In this document: one piece after another, positions 5,758-53,547 of the stretch
Numbering within the stretch: position 1 is the stretch's first letter
Layout: each line of letters begins with the position of its first letter
NCBI GenBank assembly: GCA_029210965.1
Contig: JARGFZ010000012.1
Coordinates: forward strand, 1-64,000
Length of the DNA: 64,000 nt
Origin: a bacterium
Lineage (GTDB): Bacteria; BMS3Abin14
Direction of reading: 5' to 3'
Notes under the pieces: generated by a model
What the model was told of the DNA's origin: nothing
Seen by the model: the letters and a program-made list of their open reading frames with translations, nothing else
The model's database searches: none
Translations under genes and position numbers: made by a program

Positions 5758-5949
5758 CTAGCCCTTTATCTTCCCATTATTAAAGCGGTCCCTGAATCTT
5801 TTCGCTTTCTCTGACATGCACTCGTGGTAAAACTCCATCTGCATCTGGAGCCAGGCAAACTTCTGCTCCACCGGAACTTTACGGTAAGCTTTCATCTGCT
5901 CGAGTGTTCGATAATAGAGGAGCAGCCTGTCTTTGTCCTGTTCACTCAT
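5758..5949 (-). CDS. Small protein partner of the nucleotidyltransferase
   Basis: A 63-residue acidic/basic helical protein (MSEQDKDRLLLYYRTLEQ ...). Its ATG at 5949 overlaps the stop of the upstream gene (GATGAGTGA), the sign of a translationally coupled pair; a GTG three codons further upstream is possible. A motif like KFAWLQMQMEFYHE recurs in short proteins found beside nucleotidyltransferase-like genes, but I do not recognise a named family. Its role is probably tied to its partner, possibly as the second half of a toxin-antitoxin-like module. Confidence 0.6.
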   Translation of the reverse strand: MSEQDKDRLLLYYRTLEQMKAYRKVPVEQKFAWLQMQMEFYHECMSEKAKRFRDRFNNGKIKG

Positions 5950-6442
5950 CCTTGTCACTCTTGAGGATCATTTGCAGATGGCTGACATCGGCCTCGTCCT
6001 GGGGTCTTCCCGTATCCTTTTTCATCTCGATAAGCGTATTTATGGATGCTGTTGCAACCGGGGTCCCGCCGAAATCGATCTCCTGCCTGTCACCGTACAC
6101 TGTATCGAAATCGACAGGGGGTTCTGTCATCACATCTAAAAGAAAATAGGGATGCTCCGGATCATACAGGGGAAAGACCAGCATCCCCTTGTCTTCGCGC
6201 CATGCCTTTCTTTTATAGCTGTCAGCGAACTCGTCCAGCTTTACCGGGATCTTTGGTTTTAGCCCAAGTTCCCTGACCGTTTCCAGGAATTTAGAAACAT
6301 TTTCCTGTTCCAGATCTATCATAAGGTCAATATCACCCGTTGCCCTCTCGATACCGTGCAGGTTGACAGCCACACCACCGACGACAAGGTAACGCACAGT
6401 CTGTTTATTGAGAGTATTGAAGAGATTCCTATAGAGGTGCAT
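5942..6442 (-). CDS. Nucleotidyltransferase-like protein (AbiEii/DUF6036 type)
   Basis: 166 residues. The motif VVGGVAVNLHGIERATGDID is the nucleotidyltransferase signature (GG ... hGxxRxTxDiD), with the two metal-binding Asp at about 38 and 40. Such proteins transfer nucleotides to RNA, protein or small substrates, and many belong to toxin-antitoxin or abortive-infection modules. The small gene at 5758-5949 overlaps its 3' end, giving a two-gene operon. No clear ribosome-binding site precedes the ATG at 6442. A third catalytic Asp could be in YFLLDVMTE (about residue 105). Whether it is toxin or antidote cannot be told from sequence. Confidence 0.75.
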   Translation of the reverse strand: MHLYRNLFNTLNKQTVRYLVVGGVAVNLHGIERATGDIDLMIDLEQENVSKFLETVRELGLKPKIPVKLDEFADSYKRKAWREDKGMLVFPLYDPEHPYFLLDVMTEPPVDFDTVYGDRQEIDFGGTPVATASINTLIEMKKDTGRPQDEADVSHLQMILKSDKDE

Positions 6443-8084: not shown

Positions 8085-9539
8085 TTAAAACTCCACGTTA
8101 TAGGTAAGATACAGGTTGCTGGCCGTTTCGATGGGAACCATCATCTGGGCTAACATGGGGTTGTTGATGTCATCCATGTCCTTGGGAGCGCCAACCCAGT
8201 TGCTGCTTCCGGTGTAATCGAAGGTGTAATCCTGGTAACCCAGCTTGAAAAAGGCCCTGCCCCTGCGAAACACCGGCTCCTGCTTCAGGTCCTTGATGAT
8301 ATAGAACTCGGTGACGTTACCGCGTACGCCGAGCTTGCTGGTGAGCATGTCATCAGCTGCGGGGGTAAAAGTGAGCCAATCTTCCGAACCCTGATTGTAC
8401 TCGGCACCAAACTTCAGACCGAGGTCGTCCATGTCATATCTGGCGCCTACGTAGACGGCGTTGCCTGTCTTGGATTTCTTTTCGCCGCCCATCATGGGGT
8501 TATCGTACAGCAGGCCGGCCATGCCCATGTAAAGGTTATCGTTGGGGTCAGTCTTGCTCATAGCCGCCGAGGCGAACCAGTTGATGTTTCCGGCCTTGCC
8601 GGTAACCACGGCACCGAACTGGTCGATGTTGCCTAAATTCACGTTGTCCACTGTCGTCTCGGGCTGGGCGAAGATGTCCAGTGCCCTGTTGTACTGAAAC
8701 TCTATGCGCAGCGCCTCCGTTTCGTAGGCAGCCACATCCAGGCCGATCATTTTTACATCCTTGAGGGGGGAACTACCATCGACCTGGTAGCCGCTGTCGA
8801 ACCCTTTACCGTAGCACAGCTTGGCATAGGCGCCAGGCAGTGCATCGATATCGGGGGCAATTCCCAGGACCAGGCCGTCAAAGGCGTAGTCCACCAGGAT
8901 ACCGGGAGTGCCGGAAGCGCCTGTTTTTTCCATATTGTGCCTCAGGTTGGTGGGAATACCGCCTGTGGAGGGCCTGCGTCCTACTGAAAACCATACGGGA
9001 GAGTCGCCGATGCCGCTCCACGACGCGAAGGCGGTGTCCACTCTGACCACGCTGTCCTGGGGAACGTGGGAGGTGTTGCCGTCGAACATGCTATACCGGT
9101 CCGCGAAGTATGGGCCGAGGACCGTATCAGCGGACTGGTGGCCCCAGACCTTGTACATCACCAGGCGGGCCTTGACGCTAATATCCTCAGTGGCACGGGC
9201 GTTTATGTTCAGACCGAAGCGGTTGGTCCACAGATCGCTGTTCTTTACTGTGTATCCTCCTGCGGCAATGGGAGTCATTATCTCAGCCGGATTGAACTGA
9301 TAGTAAAGGGGGACATCCCCTTCGATAGAGTCCATGCGGAACTGGTAGTCACCACTGATAGTGATGGGGGAGCGGGAGTCCTTGAGCCTCCTGGTCAGCT
9401 TCTCATTGTCCTTGGAAAGGTCTTCCAGGCGCTGCTTCATGTTCGTGATCTCAGTTTCGACCTCGGCGTCCGTGAGTGCAAAGGCCGAGAACGGGACTGC
9501 GAGCAGAGCGATCAGCATTATTGCGGTCAGCTTTTTCAT
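8085..9539 (-). CDS. DUF3373-like outer-membrane beta-barrel protein
   Basis: 484 residues. A signal peptide (about 1-22, ending FSAFA) is followed by a short coiled coil (24-55, EVETEITNMKQRLEDLSKDN). Many alternating amphipathic strands follow, ending in Phe (TYNVEF), the usual C-terminal signature recognised by the BAM machinery. Length, N-terminal coiled coil and motifs such as DLWTNRFGLN and RVDTAFASWSG fit the DUF3373 family, whose genes often sit near multiheme cytochromes. It is last in a three-gene minus-strand cluster after an octaheme cytochrome and a small periplasmic protein. A porin-like role in moving a substrate or exposing the cytochrome is plausible but inferred. Confidence 0.8.
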   Translation of the reverse strand: MKKLTAIMLIALLAVPFSAFALTDAEVETEITNMKQRLEDLSKDNEKLTRRLKDSRSPITISGDYQFRMDSIEGDVPLYYQFNPAEIMTPIAAGGYTVKNSDLWTNRFGLNINARATEDISVKARLVMYKVWGHQSADTVLGPYFADRYSMFDGNTSHVPQDSVVRVDTAFASWSGIGDSPVWFSVGRRPSTGGIPTNLRHNMEKTGASGTPGILVDYAFDGLVLGIAPDIDALPGAYAKLCYGKGFDSGYQVDGSSPLKDVKMIGLDVAAYETEALRIEFQYNRALDIFAQPETTVDNVNLGNIDQFGAVVTGKAGNINWFASAAMSKTDPNDNLYMGMAGLLYDNPMMGGEKKSKTGNAVYVGARYDMDDLGLKFGAEYNQGSEDWLTFTPAADDMLTSKLGVRGNVTEFYIIKDLKQEPVFRRGRAFFKLGYQDYTFDYTGSSNWVGAPKDMDDINNPMLAQMMVPIETASNLYLTYNVEF

Positions 9540-9939: not shown

Positions 9940-11346
9940 TTATTTGATCTTGCGGACACCGGTACGCATGGGATCGCCTTCATATCCAAGGGCTTCCCAA
10001 TCCAGACGCTTGTCGCGGCCGAAGTGACAGTCACCGCACTGGAGAGCCTGTTCCTTGGGGGCCACCTCGTGGTTGATGCTGCCGTAACTTTCCGTAGACA
10101 CGAAGGTAAACTTTCCACTGTAGGGCAGGCCAGCGGTTTCCGCCCCCGCCTGCAGAGCTTTCTCCCAATCGTAATGAGACCACAGACCGCCGTAGCTCTG
10201 GAAGATCAGCAGGTATTTGAACTTTGAATCGATGGCCTGTTTGCCCGTGAACTTCTTGAAAGGAAAGATCTTTGACCCCTTGTCCTTGATGTCGCCCACC
10301 GGCTTGGCGATAATGACGGGGCCTTTGGTGTCAGAAACCTTCTCGCCTTTCAGATAGCGGGTGATCTTGCCGTTGTACCAGGCGTACGTCGGCACCACGT
10401 CCTTTTCCCACACAAAAGTTCCCTTGTGACGGGTGAAGGTCTCCTTGCCGAACTGCTCTTCGGGCTCAACTTCCTTACCCACCGTGGACCAGTCCCAGCT
10501 CATCTTGGTGGCCTGCCCCTTGGCGAAGAAGGGGATGTGGCAGGTCTGGCAGGCCAACGTCCTGGTGTGAGCGGTCAGTAGATTTTTACTGTTGGAATCC
10601 CTGTGAGGGTCCCGGTGGCAGTCCTCGCAGGCTACTCTTCCGTCGTTGGTGGCCATGAAGGTGGATGCGCCGGCAATGCGGTGGTCTCGGGTCAAATGGC
10701 ATTCCTGGCACGTCATATCGGCCGAGCCGCCCATGTGGATATCGTGTTCCCGGGCCGGCTTTGTCAGGCTGGAATCCAGGTCCCCATGCTTGACGGCGTC
10801 CCCTCCCCCGGCGAAGAAGTGGCAAACACCGCAGTTTTTCCGGTCCGGCATGCTGACGCTTCTGGCAGCAGCCACCAGATCCATGCGACCCTTCTCAATC
10901 ATCTCCTGGTCGGGCAAACCAGCCATAGTTTTTTTGTAGTGACCTTTTTTCGCGTGGCATACGAGGCAATCGATCTTTTTCACGTCCATCTGAGGGTCAG
11001 CGCCATCGCTCCAGCCGTAACCCGCGTGACACTTGGTACAAAAAGCCCGGCTGGCTTCGATGTCCACACAGAAATTGTTGATGAGGTTGGCCTTGCCGTA
11101 CTCTTCTTTACTCTTTTCCATCCCTTTGACCGTCCGGGGCGGACCCTTCCATTTGTAGTGTGATGTTTCGAGGAACTGCTCGGCCTGTTCCTGATGACAC
11201 TCGAGACAGGCTGCCGTGACCTCTTCACCGGTAGTGAAGGGCCCTTCTATATATTCAGTGTGGTCCTCCGTGGCCATCGCCAAGGAAACGAATACCAGCA
11301 GTGCTCCTGTCAATGCTGCGATCATGGTAATGCTTCTGACCTTCAT
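9940..11346 (-). CDS. Octaheme c-type cytochrome, tetrathionate reductase (OTR) family
   Basis: 468 residues with a signal peptide (about 1-25). Eight CXXCH haem-binding motifs in order: CLECH, CTKCH, CLVCH, CGVCH, CQECH, CEDCH, CQTCH, CGDCH. Motif number and the long C-terminal domain after haem 7 (TYAWYNGKITRYLKGEKVSD, the YGGLWSHYDWEKAL region) match octaheme tetrathionate reductases, which reduce tetrathionate, nitrite and hydroxylamine in vitro. The start at 11346 has AGGAGG six bases upstream, which excludes the longer 492-residue reading. First gene of the cluster with 9565-9879 and 8085-9539. The natural substrate cannot be set from sequence. Confidence 0.9.
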   Translation of the reverse strand: MKVRSITMIAALTGALLVFVSLAMATEDHTEYIEGPFTTGEEVTAACLECHQEQAEQFLETSHYKWKGPPRTVKGMEKSKEEYGKANLINNFCVDIEASRAFCTKCHAGYGWSDGADPQMDVKKIDCLVCHAKKGHYKKTMAGLPDQEMIEKGRMDLVAAARSVSMPDRKNCGVCHFFAGGGDAVKHGDLDSSLTKPAREHDIHMGGSADMTCQECHLTRDHRIAGASTFMATNDGRVACEDCHRDPHRDSNSKNLLTAHTRTLACQTCHIPFFAKGQATKMSWDWSTVGKEVEPEEQFGKETFTRHKGTFVWEKDVVPTYAWYNGKITRYLKGEKVSDTKGPVIIAKPVGDIKDKGSKIFPFKKFTGKQAIDSKFKYLLIFQSYGGLWSHYDWEKALQAGAETAGLPYSGKFTFVSTESYGSINHEVAPKEQALQCGDCHFGRDKRLDWEALGYEGDPMRTGVRKIK

Positions 11347-11468
11347 GAAAAACCTCCTGTAGTGAGCCGGGATCGTCCGATCGATCTTCATATCTGAATG
11401 TGTATATGTTGACAGCATATTAATGTTTCATAATACATTAACTTAAAAACTATATTTCTCACAATCTT

Positions 11469-48443: not shown

Positions 48444-49694
48444 TTGAATCCAATTAACCTTTCCGGACAGGACAAAATACTTTTGTTCAGATCTCCTCAA
48501 ATCACCCTTATCATCCTGTTTATCTCAACAATGTTGATATTGCCTCTATCTGCCCTGGGAGGGGATTTTTCCCTGACATCCCGGACCTCGGCAACATCCT
48601 GGGAGGAGGAGGACGGGACTACCAACAGTTCGGCCTCCGAATATCTAAAGTTTTACAATCGGGGAGCACTGGGAGGGTTCAGACTCGACCTGGAGGGGTA
48701 CGGGCGATTTTCTCAACTGGAGGAAGAGTGGGAACCAGGTGACGAACCAGGTGACGAAGACCCCAACCGTCTTTACGTTCTCGCAATGACGCTGTCTGGA
48801 GAGAACGACCGGAATGTGATCATATTGGGGCGACAGTTTGTCACCGCCCTTGTGGGCCCTGAAATGATCGACGGTCTGTCAATACAGACCGAAGCCGGCA
48901 AGGCCACTTTCAATGCCCGCTGGGGTTACAGATCGGATGTTAGCGGGGGTTCGGAGGATGACATCATCCTCGGCCTCGGGTTTGACTATAATATCAAGCA
49001 GGGGATGTACCTGTCCCTCGATTACGGCCGCACCTACGATGACCGTACCCTTTCCGAACTTCTGGCCACCGAGTGGGTCTACAGCTGGCACCGGTTTACA
49101 AAGGCCTACATCAACCTTAACTGGGACCTCATGTCCCAAACTCTCCATGAGTCTCTTGTGGGCACCCGGCTCTTTTTCTCCGATCGTTTTTCAGCGGTTG
49201 TGGAATTTGCGCACAACGTTCAGGTTTTTGACTCCGACTCTATCTACAGTGTATTCGCCGTGGACGCGGCTTACACAAGGTCTTTTTCCCTTCTGTTCAC
49301 TCCGAGCCGCAACACGAAATACGCCTGGGACTATGTTGTAGAATCCTCCAAGGACGGAGGAGCCAAACGCTATGTAGTCAGCGGCCACTGGACACCTGGC
49401 CGCTCAAAGATCTACAGCAGCCTGCTTCAGCACACAGGCACCGGGGGTGATGTGACAGAGATATCCGCTTCGGTGTCCACACCTGTCTTCAAAAACTTTT
49501 ATGCGGGTATCGGAGGGGACCTTGCCACTACGGAGAATCCCGGTGAGAGTTCGGTGAAGAGCCACCTCGCCTACCTGAGCGGAGAGTGGGAGCTGGGACC
49601 AAATACCTCTGTTGACCTGCGATTGGAACACTGCGGCGATGAACTTACAGAACCCACCCGAACCGCAAGGTTGGCCCTGAAAGTGGAGTTCTAG
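48444..49694 (+). CDS. Outer-membrane beta-barrel of a porin-cytochrome conduit
   Basis: 416 residues from TTG 48444. A signal sequence (about 18-40, ITLIILFISTMLILPLSALG) precedes about 16-20 amphipathic strands (EYLKFYNRGALGGFRLDLEG, LGLGFDYNIKQGMYLSLDYG, TKAYINLNWDLMSQTLHESL) and a terminal Phe (LALKVEF). It is directly followed by a periplasmic decaheme cytochrome and a multiheme lipoprotein. This is the gene set of porin-cytochrome complexes (OmbB-OmaB-OmcB, MtrB-MtrA-MtrC) that carry electrons across the outer membrane. Family identity is inferred from context and fold, not from a motif. A hairpin after the stop may lower expression of the downstream genes. Confidence 0.75.
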   Translation: MNPINLSGQDKILLFRSPQITLIILFISTMLILPLSALGGDFSLTSRTSATSWEEEDGTTNSSASEYLKFYNRGALGGFRLDLEGYGRFSQLEEEWEPGDEPGDEDPNRLYVLAMTLSGENDRNVIILGRQFVTALVGPEMIDGLSIQTEAGKATFNARWGYRSDVSGGSEDDIILGLGFDYNIKQGMYLSLDYGRTYDDRTLSELLATEWVYSWHRFTKAYINLNWDLMSQTLHESLVGTRLFFSDRFSAVVEFAHNVQVFDSDSIYSVFAVDAAYTRSFSLLFTPSRNTKYAWDYVVESSKDGGAKRYVVSGHWTPGRSKIYSSLLQHTGTGGDVTEISASVSTPVFKNFYAGIGGDLATTENPGESSVKSHLAYLSGEWELGPNTSVDLRLEHCGDELTEPTRTARLALKVEF

Positions 49695-49727
49695 GAGTCT
49701 GTTGGAGTATCCATTCAGACTCCTAGC
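49692..49727 (+). terminator. Hairpin between barrel and cytochrome genes
   Basis: A perfect 11-bp stem CTAGGAGTCTG/CAGACTCCTAG overlapping the barrel stop codon, followed by CAATAATTTTT. It may be a partial terminator or mRNA-stability element that sets the barrel:cytochrome ratio. Confidence 0.6.
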
Positions 49728-49900
49728 AATAATTTTTCGAAACGGAATTTTGCCTAAAAAGAGGCGACTTAAGAGGATTTTTGGAGCAACTCGTTATGGC
49801 TATTGACATTATGGTTACCTTTATTGAAATAACCTCTCAAAAAAAGAGCATTTCGAAAAATTTACAGCAGCGAGTTGAGATAGTCCGACCCACTGCTAGG

Positions 49901-50755
49901 ATGAGTAACAAAAACAGACTGTCTTGCCTCTTCATATTTATTTTATTTTCGGCTGCGCTTCTCACTGCAACCCAGGCTGTGGCCATGCGTTTTTCACACA
50001 TTCTCCACGAGAAGAATGAGATCTCCCAGTGCTCACGTTGTCACACTCCTGGTGCCGTGACCATTATTCCCGAAAGGGCTGTCTGCTACGGATGCCACGA
50101 AGAAAAGGCTATTGAGGAGACTGTGCTGGGCCCGACCAAAACTCACACCCCGCTATGGGTGCGCCAGCACGGGATCGACTCCCAATCTGCCGGGGCGCAA
50201 TGTTCCGACTGTCACACCATTACCTTCTGTGTGGACTGCCACAAGGGCGGGGAGTTGGGAGTGAACCTGGAAAAACGAATCGTGAGGATGGATACAGCTC
50301 CGAGCACCCACACGTCACGGTTCCGGATCGTCCATCCCCTCAAAGCCACCGCTGAGCAGATCGAAAAGTGCTATACATGTCACTCGAAGTCGGAGTGCGT
50401 GGACTGCCATGAGGATTACAGACAAAAGTTTCGGGTAACCGGCCGGGAGATCGTTTCCCACCAGAAACAGAATAGTTGGGAAACGATGACCGACCACATC
50501 ACCTTCCCCTTGAATCAGTGTCAGGACTGTCATCCCGGCGGAGCCCTTTCCTCTGCCCAGTGGAGCAGCGGTCACGCCAAGGAAGCGCGCCGCACATTGA
50601 GCAGCTGCCAGTCGTGTCACCCTGAGGGTGATGCCTGCCTGGACTGCCATTCTGCCAAAACGGGCCTGATGATAAGCCCTCACCCCGGGAACTGGGGCAA
50701 GATCCAGACCAGGTTCAGGAAGGAATCACCGGAGGTTTGCGCCAAATGTCACTGA
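49901..50755 (+). CDS. Periplasmic decaheme c-type cytochrome
   Basis: 284 residues from ATG 49901, where a clean signal peptide begins (MSNKNRLSCLFIFILFSAAL, cut near TQAVA). Ten CXXCH motifs: CSRCH, CYGCH, CSDCH, CVDCH, CYTCH, CVDCH, CQDCH, CQSCH, CLDCH and the terminal CAKCH, which ends the protein. Size and haem number match MtrA/OmaB, the wire that plugs into the barrel. A frame from TTG 49781 with an AAGAGG site is open but would put 40 residues before the signal. It overlaps the next gene by ten bases. Confidence 0.88.
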   Translation: MSNKNRLSCLFIFILFSAALLTATQAVAMRFSHILHEKNEISQCSRCHTPGAVTIIPERAVCYGCHEEKAIEETVLGPTKTHTPLWVRQHGIDSQSAGAQCSDCHTITFCVDCHKGGELGVNLEKRIVRMDTAPSTHTSRFRIVHPLKATAEQIEKCYTCHSKSECVDCHEDYRQKFRVTGREIVSHQKQNSWETMTDHITFPLNQCQDCHPGGALSSAQWSSGHAKEARRTLSSCQSCHPEGDACLDCHSAKTGLMISPHPGNWGKIQTRFRKESPEVCAKCH

Positions 50756-52434
50756 TGGTACGCGTTACAGCAGGCCTGCTATCGGCATTCCTGGCCTTTA
50801 CCGGGTGTGGGTTCAACCCCAAGGATTCCGGGGGAGGAATCCCTTCCGGGGTGGAAAAGGGGACCGTCGAGTGCCTGTATTCCGGTTGCCATGATTCTAC
50901 AACGGCCACAACCAGCGTTTATCCAGGGTACAATCCAGCTGTATCATGGGTCCTGGGGTTTCACGGAAACGTTGACGCCGAATCGGGCTCTATTACAGGA
51001 ACCTGCACGGACTGTCACGATCCGATCAATGACATTTCCGACTATTCTCTTCTCTTTACTGCCAATTCGACTGGTATCATTGCCGACAGCATTCATACTG
51101 CCCTCGGTCTCACCTATAAACCGATCATAGGTTGTGAAGCATGCCACGGTTCTGGAATGGAACATTATGCATACATTGATTCGACCCTGTATTATGGCAA
51201 TCATCGTGAACCGATGGATAGCCCGGTATTAAATGTTTTCCCTAACCCGTTTCATCTTCTTCCCTGCGGCCCCTGTCACAGTCCGGACCAGCACACCGGA
51301 GGGTCTTCCCTGAGCAATGTCCTGGCCAACCAGTATCCAGAATGGTACGGGGGCGATGGACAGGGTTTTTATTCCGATGACGGACATTCCGACTCCCTGA
51401 TCGTAGAGACCGCCCAGGGCATGATGACCAGCACAGTCCGCGGCGTTCCATGTGCCGTTTGCCACACAGTTGAAGGGTTCGTGACCTACTACGTCAGGGG
51501 TGACACATCCTGGGCGTCCAGCCAGGCGGTCATCGATCGGCTCATCTCAGAGACAGGGGACACCGACATTGAGGACCCATCAAACGCTCCCGGCAGCGCT
51601 GCTCTTGCGCAGGTCTCATGCGTCTCCTGCCATCCATCCCACGAGCCGGGCGTGCTTGTACGTGGGCTGGACGGGGCCGCCACCGGTACCCAGGGCATGG
51701 CCAACCTCTGCGTCAAGTGTCATAACGTGCGGCAACTGATGTCGGATGTGGGTTCCGGCCAATCCGGTACCGGCGGCCTGGAAATACCGAGGCACCCCCA
51801 GAAGGAGATGTTTGAGGGTGTCAACAACACAAATAATGACGGGTTGAGGGGAGTGGAATCCCTGCCCAGCTTCCTTGCGGCCGATTCCGCCCACGCCGGC
51901 ACCAGCAACGTCCCTGAAGGATGCGCCGGCTGCCACTACCTTTTTGTGCCCGAGAAGAACCCCACCGAGCTTCCACTCAAGGCCACCACAGGACACAGGT
52001 TCGTCCCGCGGGTAGAGAATTGCCTGTCAAGTTACGGGCTGGGCGGCTGCCATCAGGAAACCGACTTCCTTCTATCCGACGGCACCAACCCCTCTTTTGA
52101 GGACTCAACCCTGGGGTCCTTCAATTTCGCATCCATCTACTATTCGGTTGCCGGGCAGCCGGGAGCCGACCATGACTTCGATGGAACCGTTGAACCACTT
52201 CAAACCGAGATCAAGGGGATGTTAAACAACCTGAAAAACGATCTCACTGGAGCAGGAGTACTCTTCGATAGCAGCCAGGGTCTTTTCGACCTTACCCAGA
52301 TGGCCTCGAGAACGACCACAGAGAGGGCCGCCGCCTACAACTACGATTTCGTGGTAGGGGATGGAAGTTTGGGTTATCACAACCCGATCTACGTGGTAAA
52401 TCTTCTTGCTTCAAGCATCTCGGTTTTGCCTTAA
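50746..52434 (+). CDS. Multiheme c-type cytochrome lipoprotein
   Basis: 562 residues from ATG 50746, with GGAGGT nine bases upstream. A signal peptide ends in a lipobox-like FTGC (Cys at about 21). Seven CXXCH motifs (CTDCH, CEACH, CGPCH, CAVCH, CVSCH, CVKCH, CAGCH) plus two expanded ones: CLYSGCH (CX4CH) near the N-terminus and CLSSYGLGGCH (CX8CH) near residue 430. It would bind seven to nine haems. As an outer-membrane lipoprotein it would be the surface-exposed terminus of the conduit, in the position of OmcB/MtrC. It overlaps the decaheme gene and ends before a terminator. Confidence 0.85.
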   Translation: MSLMVRVTAGLLSAFLAFTGCGFNPKDSGGGIPSGVEKGTVECLYSGCHDSTTATTSVYPGYNPAVSWVLGFHGNVDAESGSITGTCTDCHDPINDISDYSLLFTANSTGIIADSIHTALGLTYKPIIGCEACHGSGMEHYAYIDSTLYYGNHREPMDSPVLNVFPNPFHLLPCGPCHSPDQHTGGSSLSNVLANQYPEWYGGDGQGFYSDDGHSDSLIVETAQGMMTSTVRGVPCAVCHTVEGFVTYYVRGDTSWASSQAVIDRLISETGDTDIEDPSNAPGSAALAQVSCVSCHPSHEPGVLVRGLDGAATGTQGMANLCVKCHNVRQLMSDVGSGQSGTGGLEIPRHPQKEMFEGVNNTNNDGLRGVESLPSFLAADSAHAGTSNVPEGCAGCHYLFVPEKNPTELPLKATTGHRFVPRVENCLSSYGLGGCHQETDFLLSDGTNPSFEDSTLGSFNFASIYYSVAGQPGADHDFDGTVEPLQTEIKGMLNNLKNDLTGAGVLFDSSQGLFDLTQMASRTTTERAAAYNYDFVVGDGSLGYHNPIYVVNLLASSISVLP

Positions 52435-52470
52435 ACCAATCCAAAATCCAGGATCTAAAATCTAAAGAAA

Positions 52471-52498
52471 GGCCGGAGCTTTTGCTCCGGCCTCTTAT
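52471..52498 (+). terminator. Terminator of the conduit operon
   Basis: Stem GGCCGGAGC/GCTCCGGCC with loop TTTT, followed by TCTTATTTT. Preceded by heptads AATCCAA, AATCCAG, GATCTAA, AATCTAA (52438-52466). Confidence 0.9.
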
Positions 52499-52531: not shown

Positions 52532-52574
52532 CTGCAGGTCTTATTTAGAATCCTATTCTAAATAAAACCTGCAG
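52532..52574 (-). terminator. Long inverted repeat at the end of the small barrel gene
   Basis: 19-bp arms CTGCAGGTCTTATTTAGAA and its complement (18 of 19) around TCCTA. It overlaps the last codons and stop of the minus-strand gene (52545-53030). It is a probable terminator of that gene and a barrier between the convergent units. Confidence 0.7.
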
Positions 52575-53030
52575 CGTTCCCGTTCCTACATCTTTATATC
52601 CGCCACCCCCATCCCACCGGCTGATACGAAGGTCGAACCCGAGGCTGGCCGAGGGGAAGATGGGCCACCCGAAACCTCCACCAAGGGTCACACCTGCTCC
52701 GTCGATGTTCTCGAACTCATGGGCCGAGATGAGAGCGTAGATCCGGGTGGAAAACCCTCCCATGTCCATGACCCACGCAGGCCCGCCCATGACGGCATTG
52801 TAGTCTCCCTGGTCATGGGAACTGTCCTGCATGGCGACCATGAGACGGATTCCACCCGACCCAAAAGTTCCCTCGATAGTCGTACCCATGTCGGTGTCCA
52901 CTCCATCCAGATCATTGTCAAAGGAGACGAGTCCGTAACCCACCCCTAACTCCACAACTGCGTGGGAGGGGGAAGGGAAAGCAAGTAACAGCAATGGTAA
53001 TAGGAATAGCAGGGGAGTGCGTTTTTTCAT
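52545..53030 (-). CDS. Small outer-membrane beta-barrel protein
   Basis: 161 residues. A signal peptide (MKKRTPLLFLLPLLLLAFPS, ending SPSHA) precedes strands such as VELGVGYGLVSFDNDLDG, GGIRLMVAMQDSSHDQGDY, TRIYALISAHEFENIDGAG, ending TLQVLFRIGF. It is an 8-strand-size barrel of the same class as 23366-23890. The ATG at 53030 follows AAAGGAG; a 17-residue upstream extension is rejected. It converges on the cytochrome conduit, but no functional link is implied. Confidence 0.78.
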   Translation of the reverse strand: MKKRTPLLFLLPLLLLAFPSPSHAVVELGVGYGLVSFDNDLDGVDTDMGTTIEGTFGSGGIRLMVAMQDSSHDQGDYNAVMGGPAWVMDMGGFSTRIYALISAHEFENIDGAGVTLGGGFGWPIFPSASLGFDLRISRWDGGGGYKDVGTGTLQVLFRIGF

Positions 53031-53547
53031 GATTTGTCTCCTTTGGGAGAAGTGTAGCATAATCCGTGATCCGCCTGCCACGGCGACTTGTCACGGCGTA
53101 GTTCGAAGAACGAAGACGGAAGCTGAAAGCGAAGACGGGTGATCCGTAATCAAGTAAAAGTATACCAATCGCCCGAACAACAAATCAAATAGAGGTAGGA
53201 GGAATAAAAGAAACAAGTATTTCTTCATCCTCCATTTTGCATTATTCATCCTTCTGCGTCGAAAGCCCCATTCCTTGACTTACCAAGGGACACCATAGTG
53301 CATCAGATGCGGGGTGCGATTGAGGAACCGACCGGAGGTCCCGCCTGTGGCGGGAGCGAGGATCTCAGAGGGGTGATAACACAGCCATTATCGCACCGGA
53401 TGGACCATGCTCACCGGTCGCCAAGAGTATGCCAGATGGGAGGCTCGACCGATGAGGGAACCGGAGCGTACATGATATCGTACGTGAGGATTGTCGAAGA
53501 GGGAGTACGAAACAGATGGCGTGCTATTGGCAGCCGTACTAATCAGC
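53031..53547. other. Spacer with possible structured RNA
   Basis: No gene. 53090-53145 holds the CGGCGTAGTT...GAAGACGGAAGCTGAAAGCG dispersed repeat. The 53300-53535 stretch is GC-rich with several inverted repeats: GGTGCGAT/ATCGCACC (53313, 53388), CCCGCC/GGCGGG (53340-53354) and CGTACATGATATCGTACG (53467-53484). It begins with GTGCG and has a GAGGGAACCGGAGCGTAC motif that recalls group II intron RNA; identity uncertain. Confidence 0.3.

Follow-up and report, generated by a model that had tools for sequence, protein, structure and literature searches.

The closest studied porin–cytochrome (Pcc) conduits, OmbB-OmaB-OmcB and OmbC-OmaC-OmcC of Geobacter sulfurreducens, are encoded in the order barrel, periplasmic multihaem cytochrome and surface lipoprotein cytochrome. 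The class is recognised by a porin-like barrel, with 18–22 strands as against the 28 predicted for MtrB (PMC4245776), an adjacent periplasmic c-type cytochrome with 5–14 haems and, in most clusters, an adjacent outer-membrane lipoprotein multihaem cytochrome; Mtr systems (MtrCAB / PioAB) are recognised by an MtrB/PioB-family barrel and an MtrA/DmsE-family decahaem. Here we describe a three-gene cluster in a 64,000-nucleotide stretch of bacterial DNA (assembly GCA_029210965.1, contig JARGFZ010000012.1, positions 1 to 64,000; hereafter the window), which, judged from its sequence, very probably encodes an outer-membrane electron conduit of the OmbB-OmaB-OmcB (Pcc) type (probability about 0.9). 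The cluster comprises three co-directional open reading frames:

48444..49694, forward strand: porin-like outer-membrane barrel, OmbB-type, with a signal peptide and C-terminal Phe; 416 codons, start TTG uncertain
49901..50755, forward strand: periplasmic decahaem c-type cytochrome, OmaB-type; last CXXCH at the C-terminus, 10 conserved distal His
50755..52434, forward strand: predicted surface lipoprotein nonahaem cytochrome of an apparently lineage-specific family; lipobox LAFTGC-G

The preliminary description of this locus had reported these parts in this order, and its account holds: the barrel ends in ...RLALKVEF, CX2CH occurs ten times in the second protein, the last time directly before the stop codon (...VCAKCH), and the third combines the lipobox with haem motifs. 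Comparison with the sister genome G001, whose barrel is 89% identical, places the decahaem start at ATG 49901 and not at TTG 49781, because the barrel stop is followed by an insert of approximately 206 nt that G001 lacks, its barrel stop and decahaem start being joined as TAG-G-ATG. The surface cytochrome start, ATG 50755, overlaps the decahaem stop (TGATG). Originally, therefore, the three genes formed one tightly coupled unit.

Single-sequence searches of Pfam, NCBIfam and the PDB gave no useful identification of the barrel. A profile of 12 relatives, built without the named Geobacteraceae, Desulfuromonas and Nitrospirota loci, matched barrels of precisely those groups at approximately 1e-54 to 1e-89, and each barrel so matched adjoins a matching periplasmic cytochrome. 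By this measure the window barrel is homologous to pcc barrels, with frames in 77 named loci. A profile search of 84,980 species genomes with the decahaem found 95 candidate stretches encoding relatives; a decahaem profile made from twelve relatives recovered 79 named loci, including Geotalea, Geomonas, Geobacter argillaceus, Citrifermentans bremense, Desulfuromusa, Desulfuromonas, Pelovirga, Desulfurivibrio, Denitrovibrio and many Nitrospirota. A matching barrel lies directly upstream in 75 of the 76 periplasmic relatives with room for one, and a large multihaem frame lies downstream in 77 of 82, some being cut by contig ends. The periplasmic relatives carry 8, 9 or 10 motifs (38, 22 and 22 relatives, respectively). 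Geobacteraceae members have a barrel of about 404 residues, an 8-haem cytochrome of about 231 residues and a 9- to 12-haem lipoprotein, an anatomy that matches the one published for OmbB-OmaB-OmcB (PMC4245776, PMC6148476). Because the barrel and decahaem profiles recover such pairs, nearly always with the barrel upstream and mostly with a multihaem protein downstream, we assign the cluster, on homology and gene order, to the Pcc class, apparently in a deep clade of its own, and not to the Mtr systems.

The haem-ligand complement of the two cytochromes agrees with this assignment. The decahaem has a signal peptide and no lipobox, and all 20 of its histidines fall in conserved columns: 10 proximal ones within motifs and 10 distal ones, the count needed for ten bis-His haems. 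In the surface protein a plain CXXCH count gives seven motifs; two atypical ones, CX4CH and CX8CH, bring the number to nine:

50872..50892, forward strand: first haem motif, atypical CX4CH (CLYSGCH), invariant in eight orthologues
52021..52053, forward strand: ninth haem motif, CX8CH here (CLSSYGLGGCH), with a spacer that varies among orthologues

In the eight orthologues the ninth-site spacer measures 8, 8, 6, 4, 4, 14, 11 and 11 residues. Nine further histidines, the distal ones, are invariant, and the 19 cysteines divide into 18 in motifs and one in the lipobox, with none to spare. Nine covalent bis-His haems would call for just this pattern, which would be hard to explain were both atypical sites idle. 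Haem binding by CX3-4CH motifs is known. For Pcc proteins, Shi et al. (2014) left haem binding by longer spacers open (PMC4245776); in OmcZ a CX14CH motif binds haem 1 (PMC9473688), so that the long ninth-site spacer of G003 is plausible. The long-spacer motif is the single feature shared with OmcZ, to which we found no relation of the surface protein. All eight orthologues have the lipobox and, as no Asp follows its cysteine at +2, an outer-membrane location is expected.

An orthologue search covering 61 genomes found all three proteins in genomes of the same family, and weak relatives only in the other sampled lineages. Within the family most genomes carry the cluster, and the order barrel, decahaem, lipoprotein is kept in at least seven genera. 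The full gene order is seen in G003, G005, G006 and G010, and parts of it on short contigs of G001, G008, G009 and G011. Orthologue identities are 41–89% for the barrel, 54–92% for the decahaem and 51–87% for the surface protein. With gene order conserved across genera and haem-ligand positions conserved among orthologues, the three genes are real and not a product of chance. Close relatives outside the family seem to be few or absent in the collection, since no genomes are listed between family and domain level. G001 carries two surface-cytochrome copies (G001:C184 and G001:C632; L002, L031), 63% and 87% identical to that of the window and both cut by or near a contig end, which reflect either tandem duplication or strain mixture.

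In a maximum-likelihood tree of 88 periplasmic cytochromes, the window decahaem and its family form one clade (support 100/99), apart from a Geobacter/Nitrospirota set and a Desulfuromonas/Denitrovibrio set; the joining of this clade with L050/L051 may be an artefact of long branches. A second, divergent pcc cluster occurs in G003 (C1:2160283-2162263, with a 16-haem surface frame), G006 (C16) and G010 (C4). It is of the Desulfuromonas type, falls with the Desulfuromonas set in the tree and was not found in the genome to which the window belongs.

Set against described systems, the cluster shares with Geobacteraceae pcc clusters, besides the order of its parts, tight and coupled genes and profile-level homology of barrel and periplasmic cytochrome. 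It differs in having ten periplasmic haems instead of eight, and nine surface haems instead of twelve, two of them at atypical motifs, in a protein that is non-homologous over most of its length. A ten-haem periplasmic cytochrome ending in CXXCH, together with the barrel family, is shared with the pcc clusters of Desulfuromonas, Desulfuromusa, Pelovirga, Denitrovibrio and Desulfurivibrio, which correspond to Groups II/III of PMC4245776. Their surface proteins, however, have 8–16 CX2CH motifs, mostly without atypical ones, and the window cluster lies outside their clade. As described, the Ext conduits (ExtABCD, ExtEFG, ExtHIJKL) differ in haem numbers and gene order (PMC6148476); their periplasmic cytochromes have 12 or 5 haems, as against ten here.

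Of the three proteins, only the surface cytochrome appears to be lineage-specific, its family having been found so far only in this uncultured lineage. End-to-end homology with the twelve-haem OmcB-like proteins, which would mark a member of the OmcB family, is lacking: the surface-cytochrome profile (A3) matched none of the 9- to 12-haem Geobacteraceae proteins up to E 0.01. The C-terminal helix region (HNPxY) is weakly similar to NrfA, although no nitrite-reductase CXXCK site was found, and to multihaem proteins in other phyla. The remainder has weak local similarity only, to Nitrospirota and deltaproteobacterial surface cytochromes. Among these, four nine-/ten-haem proteins (L060, L069, L074, L087) match at E 1e-6 to 4e-12, mostly around the second and third haems, but are not alignable end to end, and no CX4CH start or variable ninth site was identified in them. 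In pcc clusters the surface lipoprotein is often replaced while the periplasmic cytochrome is retained (PMC6148476), so a lineage-specific surface protein is the expected mode of variation. The preliminary description had called neither the barrel nor the surface protein an obvious family member. This stands for the surface protein, most of which falls outside known families; for the barrel it was mistaken, as the profile of relatives finds pcc barrels. Homology and gene order give good support to the likeness to Geobacter conduits in order and parts, while that to Shewanella extends to the parts list and fails at the MtrB and MtrA models. As for the suggestion of a distinct conduit, the pore and the inner wire belong to the known Pcc family. 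The cluster is thus a sound Pcc member with a lineage-specific surface component and not categorically new. That it founds a further Pcc group, in which a new nonahaem family has replaced the surface module and the ninth haem, at Cys-Xn-Cys-His with n = 4 to 14, serves as an adaptable interface, is a tentative idea that we consider unlikely; such an interface might act, for example, in docking or, by analogy with the CX14CH loop of OmcZ, in filament polymerisation.

An AlphaFold2 model of the barrel, computed from twelve sequences, has 22 strands (mean predicted local distance difference test score, pLDDT, 78), within the Pcc range and below MtrB. From 22 strands, a shear number of 24 and standard barrel geometry, we estimate a backbone radius near 20 Å, which would leave room for a narrow multihaem rod. 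Column conservation across 81 barrels singles out one stretch:

49227..49262, forward strand: FDSDSIYSVFAV, where conservation over ten-residue windows peaks in the barrel family

This stretch (residues 246-257 of the modelled barrel) belongs to a long loop between strands 13 and 14, of which residues 241-260 are modelled with low confidence (pLDDT about 43). The loop is predicted to lie on the outer face. Because it is nearly invariant while the surface cytochromes of the clusters are non-homologous, it may fold inward and contact the conserved partner, the periplasmic cytochrome. This near-invariant loop offers a specific hypothesis for where the barrel grips the periplasmic wire.

In the Pcc mechanism that we favour, the 22-strand barrel would serve as a sheath through the outer membrane, and the decahaem would enter it from the periplasm, its bis-His haems spanning the membrane in a continuous row. 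On the outer face the nonahaem cytochrome, anchored by its lipid, would dock and exchange electrons, giving or taking them, with minerals, other cells or further extracellular cytochromes. We infer insertion of the decahaem, complex formation and electron transfer, as well as its direction and substrate, from the parts and their homology; the likeliest route would run from the periplasm through the decahaem inside the barrel to the nonahaem lipoprotein and outside.

Several observations weigh against this mechanism. The structure model of the surface protein is poor (pLDDT 35). A Foldseek search with the barrel was unspecific, returning generic large barrels with MtrB at rank 47 only, and the sequence comparison drew on named Geobacteraceae relatives in place of the G. 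sulfurreducens proteins. Two genomes depart from the usual layout: in G002 some 175 kb separate the barrel, next to which a fragment of the decahaem start remains, from the decahaem and surface genes (C1 1.195-1.198 Mb and 1.373-1.375 Mb), and in G004 all that is left of the surface gene is its 3′ end (C1:1332556-1332801). Rearrangement and gene loss, or else misassembly of these metagenome genomes, would explain both exceptions. Finally, the insert that separates the barrel and decahaem genes in the window could weaken their coupling:

49692..49900, forward strand: hairpin-ended insert of about 206 nt between barrel stop and decahaem start, absent in G001

Its left end is a perfect hairpin, CTAGGAGTCTG...CAGACTCCTAG, and its right end reads ...CTGCTAGGA. 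Elsewhere in the window's own genome, on G000:C36 at about 5840-6053, is another copy, whose two ends are the same and whose middle has diverged, and a reversed-pattern control did not find the hairpin pattern. The insert has an RNA-fold z of -3.66 and no Rfam family. We class it provisionally as a small, non-autonomous repeat with hairpin ends, similar to a miniature inverted-repeat transposable element (MITE) or a REPIN.

The same machinery might run mainly in the opposite direction, taking in electrons from Fe(II), sulfide minerals, electrodes or syntrophic partners. Sequence does not fix the direction, some bacteria with pcc clusters do not reduce Fe(III)/Mn(IV) oxides (PMC4245776), and porin–cytochrome genes have been suggested for Fe(II) oxidizers too (PMC5566968); the OmbB-OmaB-OmcB systems, closest among those studied, are nevertheless reductive, and we judge mainly inward flow to be rather improbable.

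A Shewanella-type Mtr system (MtrCAB/DmsEF) would have the same parts list with a decahaem periplasmic protein, and both window cytochromes give weak partial Pfam matches to MtrC/MtrF domains II/IV. We rejected it on family models: at E up to 1 neither Pfam nor NCBIfam matches the barrel to the MtrB/PioB family, and NCBIfam does not match the decahaem to TIGR03508, the MtrA/DmsE family. Profile searches of the PDB likewise returned no MtrB chain for the barrel (A1; chance matches only) and no MtrA chain for the decahaem (A2). With 22 barrel strands as opposed to 26-28, and a nine-haem surface protein that is not MtrC-like over its length, an Mtr system is very improbable. Scarcely credible, too, is an ordinary porin or transporter barrel adjoining two soluble or membrane-bound respiratory cytochromes by chance, for although Foldseek yields general barrels such as OprD-type porins and TonB-dependent receptors, and Pfam a weak Porin_4 match, the linkage of barrel and cytochrome homologues over several phyla is unlike that of an accidental neighbour, and the third protein has a lipobox.

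The Pcc cluster is followed by a possible terminator:

52470..52493, forward strand: bidirectional intrinsic-terminator-like hairpin closing the cluster; a pattern match only, the number of such matches not exceeding that in shuffled sequence

Convergent with the cluster is a small outer-membrane beta-barrel of 178 residues (52545-53081, reverse strand; weak OMP_b-brl match), which adjoins it also in G001, G002, G003, G004 and G008 and is followed by a phosphoglycerate dehydrogenase gene. Elsewhere in the window, a DUF3373 (PF11853) protein ending in Phe (8085-9539, reverse strand) lies beside an octahaem cytochrome with a Cytochrome_cB (PF11783) C-terminus (9940-11427, reverse strand), possibly a second barrel–cytochrome pair. 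A giant multihaem frame, G000:C40:1-9984 (reverse strand; L165), runs for 3,328 residues without a stop, is cut by the contig end and holds 61 CX2CH, 7 CX3CH and 16 CX4CH motifs, or 84 possible haems. Further giant frames, G000:C61 (L166), C66 (L167) and C17 (L170) among them, hold 58, 34, 34 and 25 motifs; the full-length proteins could be larger than the frames read. A paired-haem DNA pattern had no match in the genome of the window, the pattern being too strict.

Cytochrome-c assembly proteins are encoded in that genome, as are multihaem proteins in unusually large number, in keeping with a life based on extracellular electron transfer. With this cluster, the experimentally known porin–cytochrome conduits reach into an uncultured lineage, of which the sets searched contain no cultured member, and extracellular electron transfer is directly predicted for the lineage. 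The orthologue series of the surface protein, with ninth-site spacers of 4, 6, 8, 11 and 14 residues, bears on covalent haem binding by CX>4CH motifs, the point left open for Pcc cytochromes in 2014, and through this series the question may be addressed.

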